64,000 nucleotides of DNA from Candidatus Vecturithrix granuli (GTDB lineage: Bacteria; Moduliflexota; Moduliflexia; Moduliflexales; Moduliflexaceae). The DNA lies in NCBI GenBank assembly GCA_000739535.1, contig DF820466.1, positions 278,144 through 342,143 of the forward strand, given 5' to 3'. Below, piece after piece: positions 4,497 through 14,818 of the stretch. The translations under genes and the position numbers were made by a program. The number at the start of each line of letters is the position of its first letter. The first letter of the stretch is position 1. The notes beneath the pieces were generated by a model, which had not been told where the DNA came from, did no database searches, and was given only the letters and a program-made list of their open reading frames with translations.

Positions 4497-5372
4497 TCAC
4501 GTCAATTGGTCGAAAGCGATGGTCTGCAAATCCCCTCGCAATTTTTCCCGATCCTCAGCAGATAACGGAAAATCCGGAAGACGCAGGGACCCGCAATCAA
4601 ATCCCAGGAGGCGCATAACCTCAATCATTCCGCTCATAAAACGATATGTTTGCAGCGTCTCAGTCACTTTATTGGCCTTCTGCTGCCATTCCATGGCCTC
4701 AGCCAGTTTTCCTTGTTCGAAACAGGCATGAATGTTACGATACGCTCGGGGCATAAAATTCATTGTGGAACCGATGCTGCCTGTTGCGCCTGACATTCTG
4801 GCAAACAGACATTGTTCGTCCATGCCGGAGAAAATATACCAATTCTCCTGGCGCAGGTTCACAACTTGCTGAAATTCATACATATCCGGCCCGGTATATT
4901 TTGTGCCCATCACGTTTGGAAGAGTTACTAATAAGCTCTGCATCAGTTCGACAACTTTTGGAAAACCGAACAGATAGGGGAAAAATGGCAGGTGCGGCGC
5001 AGCGTTGGCGACCGCCTGAAAATATCCGACAATCTGCGGCATCTCTGCGTAATAGGGGGGAATAATACTGCTGATGCCTGAGGCTCCGATCTGAGCAGCA
5101 TGGCGGGTCAAAATTAAAGCATCCTGAATAGACATGCTCCCCACATGCACAACAACCGGAACGCGCTCGCGCACCTGAGTCATTACCGTTTCCGCGATCA
5201 GTTGACGTTCAGCGACAGACATGGACAGTCCCTGCCCGGTTCTCCCGCAGACATAAAATCCATCAACCTGTTTGGAAAGCAGATATTCCACTAAATCTCG
5301 TACAACAGCAATATTTACTGTATTTTCATCAGTAAAAGGCGTCACTAACGCCGGCCATGTGCCACGAAACAT
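4497..5372 (-). CDS. N-acetylneuraminate lyase/DHDPS-family aldolase
   Basis: This TIM-barrel class I aldolase has 291 residues from the MFRGTWPALVTPF start. The Schiff-base lysine lies in VMGTKYTGPDMYEF, which matches the neuraminate-lyase GxKxT pattern, and the tyrosine is in PYLFGFP. GATGSIGSTMNFMPR is the usual late motif. The GTTGE loop is GRTGQG, with glutamine replacing glutamate. ATG 5372 (or 5378) is chosen from family length. A longer GTG-started reading (5438) would run through an inserted palindrome. The likely role is reversible cleavage of a 2-keto acid sugar to pyruvate; the exact substrate is unknown. Confidence 0.75.
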   Translation of the reverse strand: MFRGTWPALVTPFTDENTVNIAVVRDLVEYLLSKQVDGFYVCGRTGQGLSMSVAERQLIAETVMTQVRERVPVVVHVGSMSIQDALILTRHAAQIGASGISSIIPPYYAEMPQIVGYFQAVANAAPHLPFFPYLFGFPKVVELMQSLLVTLPNVMGTKYTGPDMYEFQQVVNLRQENWYIFSGMDEQCLFARMSGATGSIGSTMNFMPRAYRNIHACFEQGKLAEAMEWQQKANKVTETLQTYRFMSGMIEVMRLLGFDCGSLRLPDFPLSAEDREKLRGDLQTIAFDQLT

Positions 5373-5397
5373 TGTCATGATTTTTCTCAATGTAAAT

Positions 5398-5438
5398 GTG
5401 CCCGGCACTTTTTCATTGTGTGCCCAAGTGCCGGGCAC
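5398..5438. repeat. GTGCCCGGCAC inverted repeat inside the 5' region of the lyase gene
   Basis: Arms GTGCCCGGCACTT and AAGTGCCGGGCAC (13 bp) flank a 15-base loop. On the minus strand a good AGGAGT ribosome site followed by ATGATG (5443/5440) lies just upstream of the palindrome, but that frame stops after 18 codons. This suggests the palindrome was inserted between the original start and the body of the lyase gene. Confidence 0.65.
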
Positions 5439-5733: not shown

Positions 5734-5843
5734 ATATCTTACATCTTATTTATTGTCTGGCAAATCCTGTCAAGCAAAACATGTAAAAAACAAAAAAATC
5801 TCCTTGACAAAAAATTTATAAATAATTGTAAGATGTAAGATAT
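5734..5843 (+). promoter_or_regulatory. promoter and paired operator-like sites of the peptide-transport operon
   Basis: ATATCTTACATCTTA (5734-5748) and its exact complement TAAGATGTAAGATAT (5829-5843) form a perfect 15-bp inverted pair, 80 bases apart. The second copy follows TTGACA (5804-5809) and covers the likely -10 region. TATCTTACATCTTA also occurs in the promoter at 14785-14818. The FCD-type GntR protein encoded at the end of this operon is the obvious candidate regulator; that assignment is inference. Confidence 0.6.
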
Positions 5844-5991: not shown

Positions 5992-7632
5992 ATGAAAAAA
6001 ACAAAATTGTTTGTCTGTGTGTGTCTGGTGCAGTTGATGGTAATTAGCCTTTTGGCGACAGGAGCGTTAGCCGCAGGCCCGATGAATAGTAATCCCCTGT
6101 CCGATGTGCGGGTACGTCAGGCCATCGCCTATGCGATTGATATGGATACTATTGTCGAGACGCTGCTGGAAGGCAAAGCGCTTGTAGCGGACAGCCAAAC
6201 CCCGAACGGGGCCTGGAAAACCGAGGGATTGAATCCCTATGCCTACAATCCGGAAAAAGCCAAAGAACTGCTGGCGGCCGCCAATTGGGATCCGAATTAC
6301 ACGCTGGATGCGGTGGTGTACTATGGCGATCAGTTGACAGTGGATTTCATGACCGCAATCCAGGCTTATCTTGATGCGGTCGGCATAAAAATGAACTTCA
6401 GGAAACTGGAAGGCGATCTGGCGACGCAATTATGGACGGCTCCGGCAGATCCGATCAACGGACCTTCGGCCGTAGATTGGGATATTTGCTACGGTGCGGT
6501 GGCTGCAATGGCCATGCAAGAATTTTATCAGCGCTATCGAACCGGAGAAAAATCGAACTCGCACACGCCCGGTGACCCGGAATTGGACGCCTTAATTGAC
6601 GCTATCAACGCCTCTGCTGATCCGACTGTGCAAAAAGCTGCGTTTGCCGAATTGCAGAAATATGAGAACGAGAATCTCTTTGCCATTCCGTTGTATTATC
6701 AACAGATGTTCATTTATGAAAGCGACCGACTGAACCTCAACGGCGGCAAATACGGCAATCCCCAGTACAATTACGATTGGAACATTGTGAATTGGACTGT
6801 CACGCCGGATAAGGATGGCAAACAGGTGCTCTACACGAATACGGCCCCGGTGGAATTTTTTGAAACGCCCTGGTTCAACCCCGGTATTTACATGGCTTCA
6901 AAAGTGGTTTTCGACCGCTTGCTGCTGGCCGACGAGACCATGACGCCCTCAAAAGGAAACTTAGCTTCCGAGTACAGCCTGAGTGAAGATGGACTTACTC
7001 TGATATTCACATTGAAAGATGGCCTGAAATGGCATGACGGCTCCGATCTGACCGCGGAGGATATTAAATGGAGTATCGAATATGCGCTCAAAGTTCCCGT
7101 CCTGCACCCCGTATTTGCCAAAACGTTCAAATCCCTGGAAGGCGCGCAAGCCTTTGCCGATGGGACGGCTGCTGCAATTACGGGAATTATGATTGACGGC
7201 AATAAAATCACCCTGAAATTCGCCCAATTGGATCCGAATGTCTTGTTGACCTTCTCGCAGTTTGCGCCACTGCCGAAAAAATATTTTACTGACATTGATC
7301 CGCTGCAATTCCAACAGGCGCCTTTCTGGCAGAAACCGATCGGCTCTGGTCCGTTCAAAATCAAAGAAGTGCAGATGAACGATTATACCGTGATGGTGCC
7401 GTTTGAAAACTATCATGGTGGTGTGGCCAAAATCGAAGAGATGATCCTGTATCCCAGCGGCGAGAATGACGCCAATGTCGTCAAAAATGCCGCGGCCGGC
7501 AAACTCGATTACGGCTATACCAAAAATGTGGGCGATGTCATGGCATTAGAAGAGATGGATCACATGCGCGTGATTGCCGTGGATATTCCCTATACGCGCT
7601 CGCTGTTTATCAATAAATTCCCGAAAAAGTAA
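5992..7632 (+). CDS. circularly permuted oligopeptide/dipeptide-binding protein (SBP_bac_5 family)
   Basis: This is the secreted binding protein of a Dpp/Opp-type ABC importer, 546 residues with a Sec signal peptide (cleavage near ALA-AG, no lipobox). The order of family segments is swapped. Residues about 35-275 hold what is normally the C-terminal half (PLSDVRVRQAIAYAID, then DPELDALIDAI, then the terminal YDWNIVNWTV). Residues about 278-546 hold the normal N-terminal half (LSEDGLTLIFTLKDGLKWHD near 330, PIGSGPFKIKE near 450) and stop at RSLFINKFPKK, which would ordinarily run straight into the PLSDVRVRQ segment. Total length is normal for the family, so nothing is missing. The operon continues with permeases and ATPases. 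Confidence 0.85.
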   Translation: MKKTKLFVCVCLVQLMVISLLATGALAAGPMNSNPLSDVRVRQAIAYAIDMDTIVETLLEGKALVADSQTPNGAWKTEGLNPYAYNPEKAKELLAAANWDPNYTLDAVVYYGDQLTVDFMTAIQAYLDAVGIKMNFRKLEGDLATQLWTAPADPINGPSAVDWDICYGAVAAMAMQEFYQRYRTGEKSNSHTPGDPELDALIDAINASADPTVQKAAFAELQKYENENLFAIPLYYQQMFIYESDRLNLNGGKYGNPQYNYDWNIVNWTVTPDKDGKQVLYTNTAPVEFFETPWFNPGIYMASKVVFDRLLLADETMTPSKGNLASEYSLSEDGLTLIFTLKDGLKWHDGSDLTAEDIKWSIEYALKVPVLHPVFAKTFKSLEGAQAFADGTAAAITGIMIDGNKITLKFAQLDPNVLLTFSQFAPLPKKYFTDIDPLQFQQAPFWQKPIGSGPFKIKEVQMNDYTVMVPFENYHGGVAKIEEMILYPSGENDANVVKNAAAGKLDYGYTKNVGDVMALEEMDHMRVIAVDIPYTRSLFINKFPKK

Positions 7633-7684: not shown

Positions 7685-7734
7685 TTCTGTTTTATCGCGG
7701 AATCATTTGAATTGCTTCGATGTCGTTCAACGTC

Positions 7735-7833
7735 CGGTTTTCCGTTCACCGAGCGAAGTCGAGGTGAGCATATGGAGCAGTTGAGTTCATACGCCGTCTC
7801 GACTTCGCTCGACGTCCGGTTTTCCGTTCACCA
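7735..7833. repeat. duplicated GAGCGAAGTCGAG-family palindrome
   Basis: The phrase CGTCCGGTTTTCCGTTCACC appears twice, at about 7730-7749 and 7812-7831. Between them are GAGCGAAGTCGAG and its complement CTCGACTTCGCTC. It fills the gap between the binding protein and the first permease. Confidence 0.7.
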
Positions 7834-7857: not shown

Positions 7858-8817
7858 ATGCTAGCCTATACCATCCGACGATTCCTGGCCCTGTTGCCGA
7901 TGATGTTCGTCATCACGTTTCTCGTGTACTTAGGGTTAGAATTGACCCCCGGCGACGCTGTGTCGTATATGGTCAGCCCGGATGCGCTGGCGAATTTGTC
8001 CCCTGAGAAACTGGAAATTTTGCGCGAGTCGCTGGGATTGAATGATCCTTTTCCGGTGCGTTATCTCAAATGGCTGGGGGGCATTCTGCGCGGCGATTTC
8101 GGCTACAGTTTATCGAGCGGCGTGGCGATTAAGGACATCGTGTTTGATCGTTTGCCGGCAACGCTTGAATTATCGGCCATTGCGCTGCTTCTTTCAACCA
8201 TTTTCGGCAGTATCCTGGGAATTCTCAGCGCTTTGCGCAAAGGCCGGCTCAGCGACAACATCCTGACGGTGCTCGGCATGGTCGGGGTCTCGATTCCGCA
8301 GTTCTTCTTTGGGCTGGTTGCGATTCTTGTCTTTGCCCTGACGCTGAAATGGCTGCCGGTCGGAGGGCGTCTGATGCCAGGCTACGTGACCTTTTGGGAT
8401 CGTCTGCCGCATCTAATTCTGCCATCGCTGGTGATGGCGGCGACAATGACGGCCGGCGTGATGCGCTACGCCCGTTCCAGCATGTTAGACGCACTAAATA
8501 AAGAATATATCAAAACCGCGCGCAGTAAAGGGCTGCCCGAATGGCGCGTTAACCTCATTCATGGCTTTAGAGTCGCCTTAACCCCGGTGATTGTGCTGAT
8601 CGGCTTTCGGCTGCCCACCTTAATCGGCGGGTCCGTCGTGATCGAGCGCGTGTTTCAATGGCCGGGCATTGGGAATGAATTTGTCTCCGCTGTCAGAGGG
8701 CAGAACTACCCGTTGGTCATGATGATTGCGCTTTTCTCGGTGTTTGCGGTGCTGATAGCGAGTTTTCTGATCGATCTCTTTACAGCCCTGCTCGATCCGC
8801 GCGTCAAACTGGAATAG
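7858..8817 (+). CDS. dppB: peptide/nickel ABC transporter permease, DppB type
   Basis: The 319-residue inner-membrane protein has six predicted membrane helices. It starts with the typical MLAYTIRRFLALLPMMFVI. The cytoplasmic coupling loop reads EYIKTARSKGLPEWRV, and the late VVIERVFQWPGIG segment is characteristic of DppB/OppB. AAGGA precedes the ATG. It pairs with the DppC-type permease downstream to form the channel served by the permuted binding protein. The dpp symbol is by family; the substrate could equally be an oligosaccharide, as in many such operons. Confidence 0.9.
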   Translation: MLAYTIRRFLALLPMMFVITFLVYLGLELTPGDAVSYMVSPDALANLSPEKLEILRESLGLNDPFPVRYLKWLGGILRGDFGYSLSSGVAIKDIVFDRLPATLELSAIALLLSTIFGSILGILSALRKGRLSDNILTVLGMVGVSIPQFFFGLVAILVFALTLKWLPVGGRLMPGYVTFWDRLPHLILPSLVMAATMTAGVMRYARSSMLDALNKEYIKTARSKGLPEWRVNLIHGFRVALTPVIVLIGFRLPTLIGGSVVIERVFQWPGIGNEFVSAVRGQNYPLVMMIALFSVFAVLIASFLIDLFTALLDPRVKLE

Positions 8818-9014: not shown

Positions 9015-9947
9015 ATGGAAAACATGAGCGTCAAAAAGACACGCTTAGATCGGAAATTCGATAAAATTCTGGCGCAAGAAGAGGCCGGGCTGCTGCGCGA
9101 TAAACAAAGCGCCAACCGCGCGCTGCGTAAGATGCTGAACAACCGTCTGGCAGTGGCCGGATTGGTTGTGTTTACGTTAATCGTGTTGTCTGCCATTTTT
9201 GCTCCCCTGATCTGCAAGTATGACCCGCAAGCCATTGATTTACGCATGATGTTGAAGCCGCCGTCAGCACAGCACATTTTCGGCACTGATAAAGTGGGGC
9301 GCGATGTGTTTGCCCGCGTCATTTACGGTGGGCGTGTCTCGATTTTAGTGGGGCTTGGCAGCGCGTTCGCAGCCGCGTTGGTCGGCGTTACGAGCGGCTG
9401 TTATGCGGGCTATCGCGGCGGCCGGTTAGACGCCATGCTGTTGCGCGTCTCGGAGATCTTCATGGCTTTCCCGCAGATCGTCCTGGTGCTGCTGCTGGTT
9501 TCCTTTGCCGGCCAGAGCCTGATGAATCTGATCATTATTTTCACCTTGACCGGCTGGGGGTCTATGTATCGCATGACGCGCGCTAAAATGCTCTCGCTGC
9601 GGGAAGAAGACTATGTTCAGGCTCTGTGCGCCTTTGGCGTGCATACCTTGAAAATTTGCTATAAGCATATTCTGCCCAACGCTCTCGGCCCGATTCTGGT
9701 CAATATCACCCTCAGCACCGCGATGTTTATTTTAGAGGAGGCCGCGTTGAGCTTTCTGGGACTGGGCGTGCCGTTACATATTCCGACCTGGGGCAATATT
9801 CTGAATGTCGCGCAAGACCTGCGGATTTTACAAAATAATTGGTGGGTCTGGCTGCCGGTAGGCGTCATGATTTCGCTGTTTGTGTTGAGCGTCAATTTCA
9901 TCGGCGACGGACTGCGCGATTCGACGGATCCGACGCAGCAAGGATAA
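9015..9947 (+). CDS. dppC: peptide/nickel ABC transporter permease, DppC type
   Basis: The 310-residue inner-membrane permease has an N-terminal cytoplasmic region ending in NRLAVAGLVVFTLIVL. The FGTDKVGRDVFARVIYGGR segment is diagnostic of DppC/OppC. The coupling loop is REEDYVQALCAFGVHTLKI, and AALSFLGLGVP is the usual late motif. The start could be 9015 or the ATG at 9024; neither has a strong ribosome site. It partners with the DppB-type permease. Confidence 0.9.
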   Translation: MENMSVKKTRLDRKFDKILAQEEAGLLRDKQSANRALRKMLNNRLAVAGLVVFTLIVLSAIFAPLICKYDPQAIDLRMMLKPPSAQHIFGTDKVGRDVFARVIYGGRVSILVGLGSAFAAALVGVTSGCYAGYRGGRLDAMLLRVSEIFMAFPQIVLVLLLVSFAGQSLMNLIIIFTLTGWGSMYRMTRAKMLSLREEDYVQALCAFGVHTLKICYKHILPNALGPILVNITLSTAMFILEEAALSFLGLGVPLHIPTWGNILNVAQDLRILQNNWWVWLPVGVMISLFVLSVNFIGDGLRDSTDPTQQG

Positions 9948-10054: not shown

Positions 10055-11065
10055 ATGGAAAATGAGACTATTATCAGCGTCAAAGACCTGAAAGTCTTTT
10101 TCTACGCCAATCAGCGCTGTAATAAAGCGGTGAACGGCGTGTCCTTTCAGATCAAAAAGGGGCAGACGTTGGGCATTGTCGGTGAAAGCGGCTGCGGCAA
10201 AAGCGTGACCGCTTCCTCAATCATGCACTTGCTGCCATCCCTCTCGCGCATCGAATCGGGCGAAATCAGCTATTATACACCGGAAGGCGAAATCCGCATT
10301 GACCGCTTGCCCAAAAACGGTAAAAAGATGCGCACACTGCGGGGCGCAGAGATCGCCATGATTTTCCAGGACCCGATGACGGCCTTAAATCCGGTCTATA
10401 GCATCGGATTTCAAATTGCGGAAAATCTGATCTACCATCTGTCCATGAAGAAAAAACAATCGAAACAGCGTTCGATTGAAGCCTTGCGCGAGATGGGCAT
10501 TCCCCTGCCGGAACAACGGGTAAACGAGTATCCCCATCAATATTCCGGCGGCATGCGTCAGCGCGCTATGATTGCGATGGCGATGGCCTGTCATCCCAAA
10601 GTGCTGATCGCCGACGAACCGACTACCGCTCTGGATGCGACGATTCAGGCGCAGATATTCGAACTGATCGAACAACTCAAACGCAACTATAACACTGCCG
10701 TGATGCTGATTACGCACGATATGGGGGTCATAACCGAATTGGCCGATGACGTCGCCGTGATGTATATGGGCAATATCGTGGAAAGCGGCACAGTAGAAGA
10801 TGTGCTGCGCACCCCGGCGCATCCTTATACGCAAGCGCTGCTCAGTTCCATTCCGGTGCTTGGCCGGGGCAAACAGCAGGAAATCGAACCGATTCGCGGC
10901 TCAACCCCTGATCCGTATAATCGTCCGGAAGGCTGTCAGTTTCATCCCCGCTGCGACTATTTTTCCGAACGCTGTCTTGCCATGCCGTCTGAACACGCGA
11001 TCAACGCGACGCACACAGTCAGGTGCTGGCATTATGAAAAGGTCTTGAACAATGGCAAAGGATAG
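10055..11065 (+). CDS. dppD: peptide ABC transporter ATPase, DppD type
   Basis: The 336-residue ATPase has Walker A GESGCGKSV, signature YSGGMRQRAMIAMAM, Walker B VLIADEPTTALDA and the H-loop ITHDMGV. The C-terminal oligopeptide-transporter domain holds the cysteine cluster GCQFHPRCDYFSERC, which in the family can bind an iron-sulfur cluster. The start MENETIISV is chosen because it begins the family alignment; the longer frame upstream overlaps dppC out of frame. It overlaps the next gene by 14 bases, indicating translational coupling. Confidence 0.92.
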   Translation: MENETIISVKDLKVFFYANQRCNKAVNGVSFQIKKGQTLGIVGESGCGKSVTASSIMHLLPSLSRIESGEISYYTPEGEIRIDRLPKNGKKMRTLRGAEIAMIFQDPMTALNPVYSIGFQIAENLIYHLSMKKKQSKQRSIEALREMGIPLPEQRVNEYPHQYSGGMRQRAMIAMAMACHPKVLIADEPTTALDATIQAQIFELIEQLKRNYNTAVMLITHDMGVITELADDVAVMYMGNIVESGTVEDVLRTPAHPYTQALLSSIPVLGRGKQQEIEPIRGSTPDPYNRPEGCQFHPRCDYFSERCLAMPSEHAINATHTVRCWHYEKVLNNGKG

Positions 11066-12059
11066 AGAAATTATTTTAACCTTACGGGGCGTTAAAACCT
11101 ATTTCCCCGTGCAAAAAGGGGTCTTCAAGCGAACCGTCGGCCATGTAAAAGCGGTTGACGGCGTAGATTTGGAGGTGTATCGCGGCGAAACGCTGGGGTT
11201 GGTCGGAGAAAGCGGATGCGGCAAGACTACCCTGGGGAAAGCCATCTTGCAATTGGTTAAGGCCACGCACGGCGAAATTATCTATCACAGCGCCGATGGG
11301 GAACGCGACCTGCGTAAACTCAGCGACGCCGAGATGAACGTGGTGCGCAAGCGCTTGCAGATCGTTTTTCAAGACCCGTATTCATCGCTGAATCCGGCAT
11401 TCACCATCTTTGGCTCTCTGCAAGACCCGCTGAAGAAATACGGCGTCAGATCGAAAACAGAACGCCGCCGCATTATCGGCGATCTGCTGGAATCGGTCAA
11501 TATGCGCCGCGAACAGATGGATTGCTATCCGCATGAGTTTTCCGGCGGTCAGCGCCAGCGCATCGGCATCGCCCGCGCTCTGAGTATCGAACCGGATTTG
11601 ATCATCTGCGACGAAGCCGTGAGCGCGCTCGATGTTTCGATTCAGGCGCAGGTTTTAAAGCTGTTGAAAAAGATTAAGGCTGAGCGCAATTTGACCTACA
11701 TTTTTATTACCCATGATCTCAGCGTAGTTGAGTACATCAGCGACAGAGTGGCGGTCATGTACCTGGGCAAAATTGTTGAACTGGCCGCGAGCGAAGACCT
11801 GTATGCGGACACGCTGCACCCTTATACCAAAGCCTTACTGTCGGCGATTCCGGTCGCTGACCTGGATCGCAAATCGAAACGCATTGTGCTCAAAGGCGAC
11901 GTGCCCAGTCCGGTCAATCCGCCCGGCGGCTGCGCTTTTCACCCGCGATGCCCGCAAGCTCAGGAGATTTGCAGTACGCAAACGCCGCAGTTAAAAAAAT
12001 ATGTGCGACAGGGCAGGGAGCATTTTGCCTCCTGTCATTTTGTCGCAGAAAGTCAATGA
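11052..12059 (+). CDS. dppF: peptide ABC transporter ATPase, DppF type
   Basis: The 335-residue second ATPase has Walker A GESGCGKTTLGK, signature FSGGQRQRIGIARAL, a Walker B region LIICDEAVSALD, and the C-terminal GGCAFHPRCPQAQEIC cluster. It forms the heterodimeric motor with the DppD-type protein. The gene overlaps dppD at its start and is 9 bases from the regulator gene that follows. Confidence 0.92.
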   Translation: MAKDREIILTLRGVKTYFPVQKGVFKRTVGHVKAVDGVDLEVYRGETLGLVGESGCGKTTLGKAILQLVKATHGEIIYHSADGERDLRKLSDAEMNVVRKRLQIVFQDPYSSLNPAFTIFGSLQDPLKKYGVRSKTERRRIIGDLLESVNMRREQMDCYPHEFSGGQRQRIGIARALSIEPDLIICDEAVSALDVSIQAQVLKLLKKIKAERNLTYIFITHDLSVVEYISDRVAVMYLGKIVELAASEDLYADTLHPYTKALLSAIPVADLDRKSKRIVLKGDVPSPVNPPGGCAFHPRCPQAQEICSTQTPQLKKYVRQGREHFASCHFVAESQ

Positions 12060-12068
12060 AAGGTAGCT

Positions 12069-12770
12069 ATGGCTAAACGACAAACTGTTTCAGAAGTGGT
12101 GCAACACTATATTCGCGATTATATCGTCGAAAATAAACTTCGTCCCGGCGACCAACTGCCGCCGGAAGGCGATATTGCTGAAACCCTCGAAGTGAGCCGG
12201 GTTTCGGTGCGGGAGTCGGTGAAAGTCCTGCAAGCGCTGGGGATTGTGGAAGTCCGGCATGGTAACGGCCTTTTTGTGCGCGGGTTAAACTTTGATGCGC
12301 TCCTTGAAATCCTCTCCTACAGCTTGTTATTCGATCAATCGTCGCTGAAAGAACTGTATCAGGTGCGCAAATTGTTTGAAACCGGGATGCTCCCGGAAGT
12401 GATCGAGCATATCCGGGAAGAGCACATTCAAACCTGCTACAAGCATTTACAGGACTGGGAGCAGAATATGACGCAGGGACGTCCCTTCCGCGACCAGGAT
12501 CGGCTCTTCCATGTCACCCTTTGCCAGGCCATCGGAAATAATTTATTGGTGGAACTGGAGAATATTTTCTGGATTGCCTACCGCAACGCCGTCAATAAAA
12601 CGTTTCCCGACATTGCGCAGCGAGCCTATCAGATCACGCTTGACAATCATTATAAGATTCTGGCGGCGGTCGAAGCCCGCAATGTCGAATTAGCCCAGCA
12701 ACTCATGGCCGACCATTTTGAAGGCATCAAAGAACGTATCGAGATGAAGGTTGAAGAGGCTGCGGAATGA
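12069..12770 (+). CDS. GntR-family transcriptional regulator, FadR/FCD type
   Basis: The 233-residue regulator has an N-terminal winged helix (residues 1-75: KLRPGDQLPPEGDIAETLEV, then SRVSVRESVKVLQALGIVEV) and an all-helical FCD ligand domain. Metal-binding positions are visible in DRLFHVTLCQ, DNHYKIL and MADHFEG. AAGG lies just upstream of the start, and the gene closes the transport operon. The inverted TAAGATGTAAGA motifs in the 5.8-kb and 14.8-kb promoters are candidate binding sites. The inducer is unknown, probably a sugar acid or carboxylate as for other FCD proteins. Confidence 0.88.
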   Translation: MAKRQTVSEVVQHYIRDYIVENKLRPGDQLPPEGDIAETLEVSRVSVRESVKVLQALGIVEVRHGNGLFVRGLNFDALLEILSYSLLFDQSSLKELYQVRKLFETGMLPEVIEHIREEHIQTCYKHLQDWEQNMTQGRPFRDQDRLFHVTLCQAIGNNLLVELENIFWIAYRNAVNKTFPDIAQRAYQITLDNHYKILAAVEARNVELAQQLMADHFEGIKERIEMKVEEAAE

Positions 12771-14784: not shown

Positions 14785-14818
14785 TTGACAAATCTTATAT
14801 AAGTTATCTTACATCTTA
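14785..14818 (+). promoter_or_regulatory. promoter and operator-like site of the sugar ABC operon
   Basis: TTGACA (14785-14790) is followed by TATCTTACATCTTA (14805-14818), which matches 14 of the 15 positions of the inverted pair upstream of the peptide operon at 5734-5843. The site covers the expected -10 region, which fits repression. Confidence 0.55.

Follow-up and report, generated by a model that had tools for sequence, protein, structure and literature searches.

A natural circular permutation in a DppA/OppA-type binding protein of Candidatus Vecturithrix granuli and its relatives

The window analyzed here, a 64,000-nucleotide stretch of the Candidatus Vecturithrix granuli genome, contains a gene (5992-7632, + strand) for a 546-residue solute-binding protein (SBP) of the SBP_bac_5 family (PF00496; DppA/OppA class, cluster C) whose two halves appear to stand in the wrong order. 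This raises the question of whether the order is real and, if so, whether such a protein can still serve a transporter, what it might carry, and how the rearrangement arose. A sequence-only reading of the window had proposed a natural circular permutation; we followed it up with profile searches, structure prediction, comparison of homologous loci, and phylogenetics.

Chain order of the window SBP

The whole chain matches PF00496 with 209.6 bits (cut-off 32.4), and each half passes on its own. When the halves were searched separately, residues 28-275 aligned to profile positions 209-328 (E = 7.6e-27) and residues 276-546 to positions 4-207 (E = 3.3e-35), i.e., two complementary pieces in swapped rather than colinear order, which bears out the claims of the sequence-only reading that the protein is permuted and that both halves are complete. 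Matches to sequences in the PDB are swapped in the same way, with query residues 303-541 corresponding to the first half of the solved chain and 16-139 to the second; every solved chain among the matches listed is in canonical order. As a positive control, the unpermuted relative from Proteiniclasticum ruminis (L058) aligned as one colinear stretch (PF00496 positions 2-327) and matched OppA/AppA nearly end to end. Because L058 is colinear in the same searches, the permutation is a property of the window SBP sequence and not of the search. With the same swap preserved in dozens of relatives from several phyla (see below) and an unswapped cousin in clostridia, the window SBP is a genuine case of natural circular permutation among SBP_bac_5 proteins. 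None of the NCBIfam equivalog models for Opp4A, DppA, or NikA reached its cut-off (best Opp4A, 172 bits vs. 650). The other SBPs of the same genome are canonical, among those that could be ordered from their matches.

The chain begins with a Sec signal peptide (residues 1-28; 5992..6075, + strand) that, as proposed, is fitted to the new N-terminus: it consists of MKKTK, a hydrophobic core, and a final ALA-A, and is of type I, with the lipobox absent. The mature sequence opens with NSNPLSDVRVRQAIAYAID, and the domain II half (residues 34-270; 6091..6801, +) runs from the RVRQA helix to the old C-terminus, YDWNIVNWTV. A new linker of approximately TPDKDGKQ (residues 271-278; 6802..6825, +) then joins the old C-terminus to the old N-terminus. 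The domain I half (residues 279-546; 6826..7629, +) starts at VLYTNTAPVEFFE, includes VLYTN...FFE, WHDG, and PIGSGPF, and finishes with a long strand, ...YTRSLFINKFPKK, the chain ending at SLFINKFPKK. Comparison with canonical C- and N-termini showed that the linker exists, as had been claimed, but is shorter than first thought: YDWNIVNW, which had been counted as part of it, is how proteins of this family ordinarily end (...YDWNIQNWKVN in the canonical sisters).

Ordinary-order close relatives were found in 12 clostridial genomes and two of another order (L058, L084-L094, L131, and L132); they share approximately 50-68% identity with the permuted form per half and have the same operon. Where permuted chains start and end, these sisters carry a loop of up to ~5 extra residues (NKFKKADGSK-SPLAD). 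The termini of the window SBP lie in this loop, which connects the strand ...SLFINKF to the RVRQA helix; they fall just before the helix, where the sequence-only reading had placed them. All 12 of the unpermuted proteins that were checked are lipoproteins, vs. 3 of 44 permuted ones (the N-termini of L036, L038, and L098 have a lipobox). In these three, the lipid anchor would attach on the domain II side, and not on domain I as in ordinary lipoprotein SBPs of the class.

Predicted fold, operon, and likely cargo

An AlphaFold2 model of the window SBP, run on an alignment of 35 permuted sequences, has a pLDDT of 91.2 and a pTM of 0.87. With a sequential aligner, which gives one piece per alignment, model residues 222-509 superpose on OppA 1-274 (Z = 21) and residues 4-229 on DppA 271-495 (Z = 20.8). 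Two-piece superposition on OppA/NikZ and DppA/AapF gave Z = 20-22, as for a two-domain DppA/OppA fold, while whole-chain TM-scores from Foldseek were just 0.32-0.41, in keeping with a permuted chain. The model, which fits OppA and DppA in two swapped pieces in the superposition that the sequence-only reading had called for, shows a predicted fold that retains the ordinary two-domain arrangement, with domain II and the old C-terminus first in the chain and domain I second.

DSSP places the C-terminal strand of the model at E498-513 in mature numbering, i.e., residues 525-540 (7564..7611, +). Two hinge strands have been described in SatA (PMC11364026), and from secondary structure and analogy with that protein we infer that the inter-domain hinge here is formed by the C-terminal strand together with IPLYYQQMFIYES. 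If both are hinges, neither crossing would be lost, the chain being opened only in the loop that follows one of the two; the usual Venus-flytrap closure should still work if both crossings persist.

The gene heads an intact dpp-type operon, as had been claimed. It is followed on the + strand by a dppB-type permease (7858..8817; NCBIfam Opp2B/Opp4B, below the equivalog cut-off), which adjoins the SBP in homologous loci, a dppC-type permease (9015..9947; Opp4C, below cut-off), and dppD-type (10055..11065) and dppF-type (11052..12059) ATPases. Next to these lies a GntR/FadR-family regulator (12069..12770, +), for which the nearest model is NanR (below cut-off), and divergent from the SBP is a DHDPS-family aldolase (4497..5438, - strand), for which the best model is N-acetylneuraminate lyase, NanA (below cut-off). 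The SBP-dppBCDF arrangement is conserved around permuted and unpermuted SBPs alike. We put the probability at roughly 85% that this is a functional permuted cluster C SBP of DppA/OppA type serving the adjacent DppBCDF-like ABC importer.

Two repeat features were also observed. The gap between the SBP and dppB holds a REP-like element (7731-7832), in which a direct repeat, CGTCCGGTTTTCCGTTCACC, surrounds an inverted TCGACTTCGCTCG; its core motif has seven copies in the genome. An inverted pair, ATCTTACATCTTA / TAAGATGTAAGAT, lies at 5736 and 5829 (5736..5841) between the promoters of the aldolase and the SBP, and the 13-bp site TAAGATGTAAGAT or its reverse complement occurs in three copies (5736-5748, 5829-5841, and 14806-14818). 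These sites are a candidate operator of the NanR-like regulator; the inverted pair was not seen upstream of the homologue in L021, a relative from the KSB3 division.

Neighboring genes give clues to cargo. A relative of the NanA-type aldolase is present at 38 of 50 permuted and 13 of 14 canonical loci (51 of 64 together), and several of the remaining loci are short contigs. NanE occurs at 13 loci and NanK at six, an acetylesterase or N-acylglucosamine 2-epimerase at some, and two outgroup loci also have NanE. For the window itself, the 20 kb examined contained neither NanE nor NanK, and some alphaproteobacterial clusters have other sugar-acid enzymes instead. Because NanA-type aldolases, and at times NanE or NanK, accompany both permuted and unpermuted SBPs, we lean toward a cargo of sialic acid, or of a 3-deoxy-2-keto sugar acid related to it, and not of peptides; after import, the NanA-type aldolase would split such a sugar acid in the cytosol.

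The term “oligopeptide-binding” used in the sequence-only reading thus holds as a family label, while the neighbors point to a sialic-acid-like substrate. An ordinary peptide importer, with a permuted SBP that binds di- or oligopeptides like DppA/OppA, would agree with the peptide/nickel type of both family and transporter class, and with the closest solved sequences, which include DppA and a peptide/aminoserine-binding protein. We consider it unlikely, though by no means negligible, as NanA-type aldolases, and sometimes NanE, NanK, an acetylesterase, or N-acylglucosamine 2-epimerase, lie beside both forms of the SBP, and no peptidase was present among those neighbors that were annotated.

Other neighbors vary by group. 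In canonical clostridial operons (L108-L114), the NanA-type aldolase downstream of dppF is mostly followed by an FAD-dependent oxidoreductase and AXE1-type acetylesterases. In several Rhodobacteraceae and Hyphomicrobiales (L040, L042, L043, L045, and L060), sulfatase genes lie upstream of the SBP beside the aldolase and SBP genes, which makes a sulfated substrate possible there.

Distribution, origin, and integrity

A scan of genome contigs yielded 43 loci, nearly all in permuted order; the exceptions are L058 and the distant L063 (canonical), L057 (truncated), and L054 (split). Altogether, the homologue search that the sequence-only reading had called for found the same order and the same breakpoint in ~45 further species from at least five phyla. 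Carriers belong to the KSB3 division, Spirochaetota, Alpha-, Gamma-, and Deltaproteobacteria, and Bacillota, along with one Marinimicrobia MAG, and include the finished chromosomes of Breznakiella homolactica and Devosia rhodophyticola. Additional spirochaetal members share 46-61% identity with the window SBP. The breakpoint is identical in all permuted sequences, and the linker is short and variable. Spread by plasmids was considered and rejected, since in all 1,675 plasmid records that gave a match the identity stayed below 60%.

The permutation likely arose once, a view favored by the identical breakpoint and by parsimony, despite trees that weakly disagree. The SBP gene would first have been duplicated in tandem; the first copy would then have lost domain I while keeping its signal peptide, and the second would have lost domain II, giving the order signal peptide-II-I. 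Most likely this would have happened a single time, in a common ancestor with the unpermuted clostridial clade, and the permuted gene would then have spread horizontally. A duplicated intermediate was not observed.

More than one origin, or a return of the clostridial canonical clade to ordinary order, appears improbable, although certain trees favor it. FastTree phylogenies with distant canonical outgroups nest the canonical clade among the permuted sequences, for SBP and dppBCDF alike, and the domain II half alone rejects a grouping of all permuted sequences (p-AU = 0.022), placing the canonical clade with L029. We did not take the FastTree nesting at face value, as the base of the tree lost resolution under a mixture model with more rows, while the domain II half still prefers nesting. 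Under that model the concatenated SBP tree groups all permuted sequences (support 40/0; 27/0 without the long outgroups), and the grouping is not rejected by the domain I half or by the dppBCDF tree (p-AU = 0.444), so that these data sets are compatible with a single origin. The identical breakpoint in all permuted sequences also argues against repeated events, and it is mechanistically unlikely that the ancestral order would be restored exactly. For the clostridial clade in particular, reversion from the permuted form or repeated permutation at the same loop is more doubtful still; if true, it would mean that binding proteins can evolve reversibly through whole-domain permutation.

Both halves and the junction are under strong purifying selection. 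Relative to L021 (81% identical), the window SBP has a dN of 0.116 and a dS of ~2, which is near saturation so that only the sign (purifying selection) is safe; both halves behave alike, and the linker region (residues 263-282) is 95% identical. A degenerate or non-functional gene fragment retained by chance is therefore highly improbable, even though one homologue, from Devosia algicola (L054), is split in its assembly: we rejected this explanation on dN/dS and conservation, and it also conflicts with the intact operon. The Devosia algicola SBP (L054, 8001-9625) is a permuted member in two ORFs, by frameshift or assembly error.

Least credible of all is an assembly artefact that fused parts of two tandem SBP genes, for although the window genome is a 21-contig assembly with an estimated contamination of 10.75% and many SBP genes, misassembly is excluded by independent assemblies (KSB3, Spirochaetota, Pseudomonadota, Bacillota, and a Marinimicrobia MAG), the two finished chromosomes among them, that show an identical order and breakpoint, as well as by purifying selection across the junction. 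Thus, neither outcome that the sequence-only reading had named as contrary to its claim was observed, as the profile match is not colinear and ~45 other assemblies exclude misassembly.

Comparison with known systems

The DppA/OppA class is among the most numerous classes of bacterial binding proteins. No report of a permuted SBP_bac_5 protein was found in the open-licence literature, and as far as that literature was searched, the class had no earlier example of natural circular permutation. The earlier statement that no case had been described therefore holds for SBP_bac_5, but not for binding proteins in general, since natural permutations are known in cluster B and in glycine-betaine-binding proteins.

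With a natural matched pair, one can test directly what chain order does to folding, hinge motion, ligand release, and transporter docking, and whether it matters that the N-terminal anchor has moved from domain I to domain II. For biosensor design in the DppA/OppA class, the common breakpoint indicates a site where permutation is tolerated. The locus also illustrates a failure mode of annotation, in which profile searches return two partial matches and the rearrangement is overlooked.

TpMglB-2 (Tp0684) of Treponema pallidum, assigned to “Type Ic/Cluster Bc”, is a natural circular permutation kept in many species, and it still binds glucose and changes conformation (PMC4990184). In that protein, part of one lobe was moved and a fourth cross-over added, and the moved part is only 13% identical to its counterpart (PMC4990184); in the window SBP, whole halves are swapped and both are clearly homologous to the family. 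The window SBP also lacks the Type I/cluster B fold of TpMglB-2, its fold and profile being those of cluster C. Glycine-betaine-binding proteins form another permuted family (PMC2395249), but they belong to a different cluster, with <24% identity and a permutation recognised from structures only (PMC2395249). A widespread permuted family with strong similarity to unpermuted sisters is rare, the TpMglB-2 and betaine-binding forms being too distant for direct comparison.

SatA (of the sialic-acid importer SatABCD; PDB 5z99) shares with the window SBP the SBP_bac_5 family, a Dpp-type importer, and two hinge strands (putative here), and its sialic-acid context may also apply to the window SBP (PMC11364026, PMC10017367), but SatA has the ordinary order. 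Its Neu5Ac site includes a His-Ser pair and a single Arg (PMC10017367). SatA is not closer to the window SBP than other SBPs are: 5z99 matches with E = 4.6e-18, well down a list in which DppA-type chains reach 1e-35.

The window SBP has the profile, fold, size, and DppBCDF-type partner genes of other DppA/OppA cluster C SBPs, from which it differs in its swapped halves, its new termini before the RVRQA helix, and its new linker; we place it in a permuted subfamily and not among the ordinary members. The clostridial unpermuted relatives share its operon and NanA-type aldolase but have the ordinary chain order.
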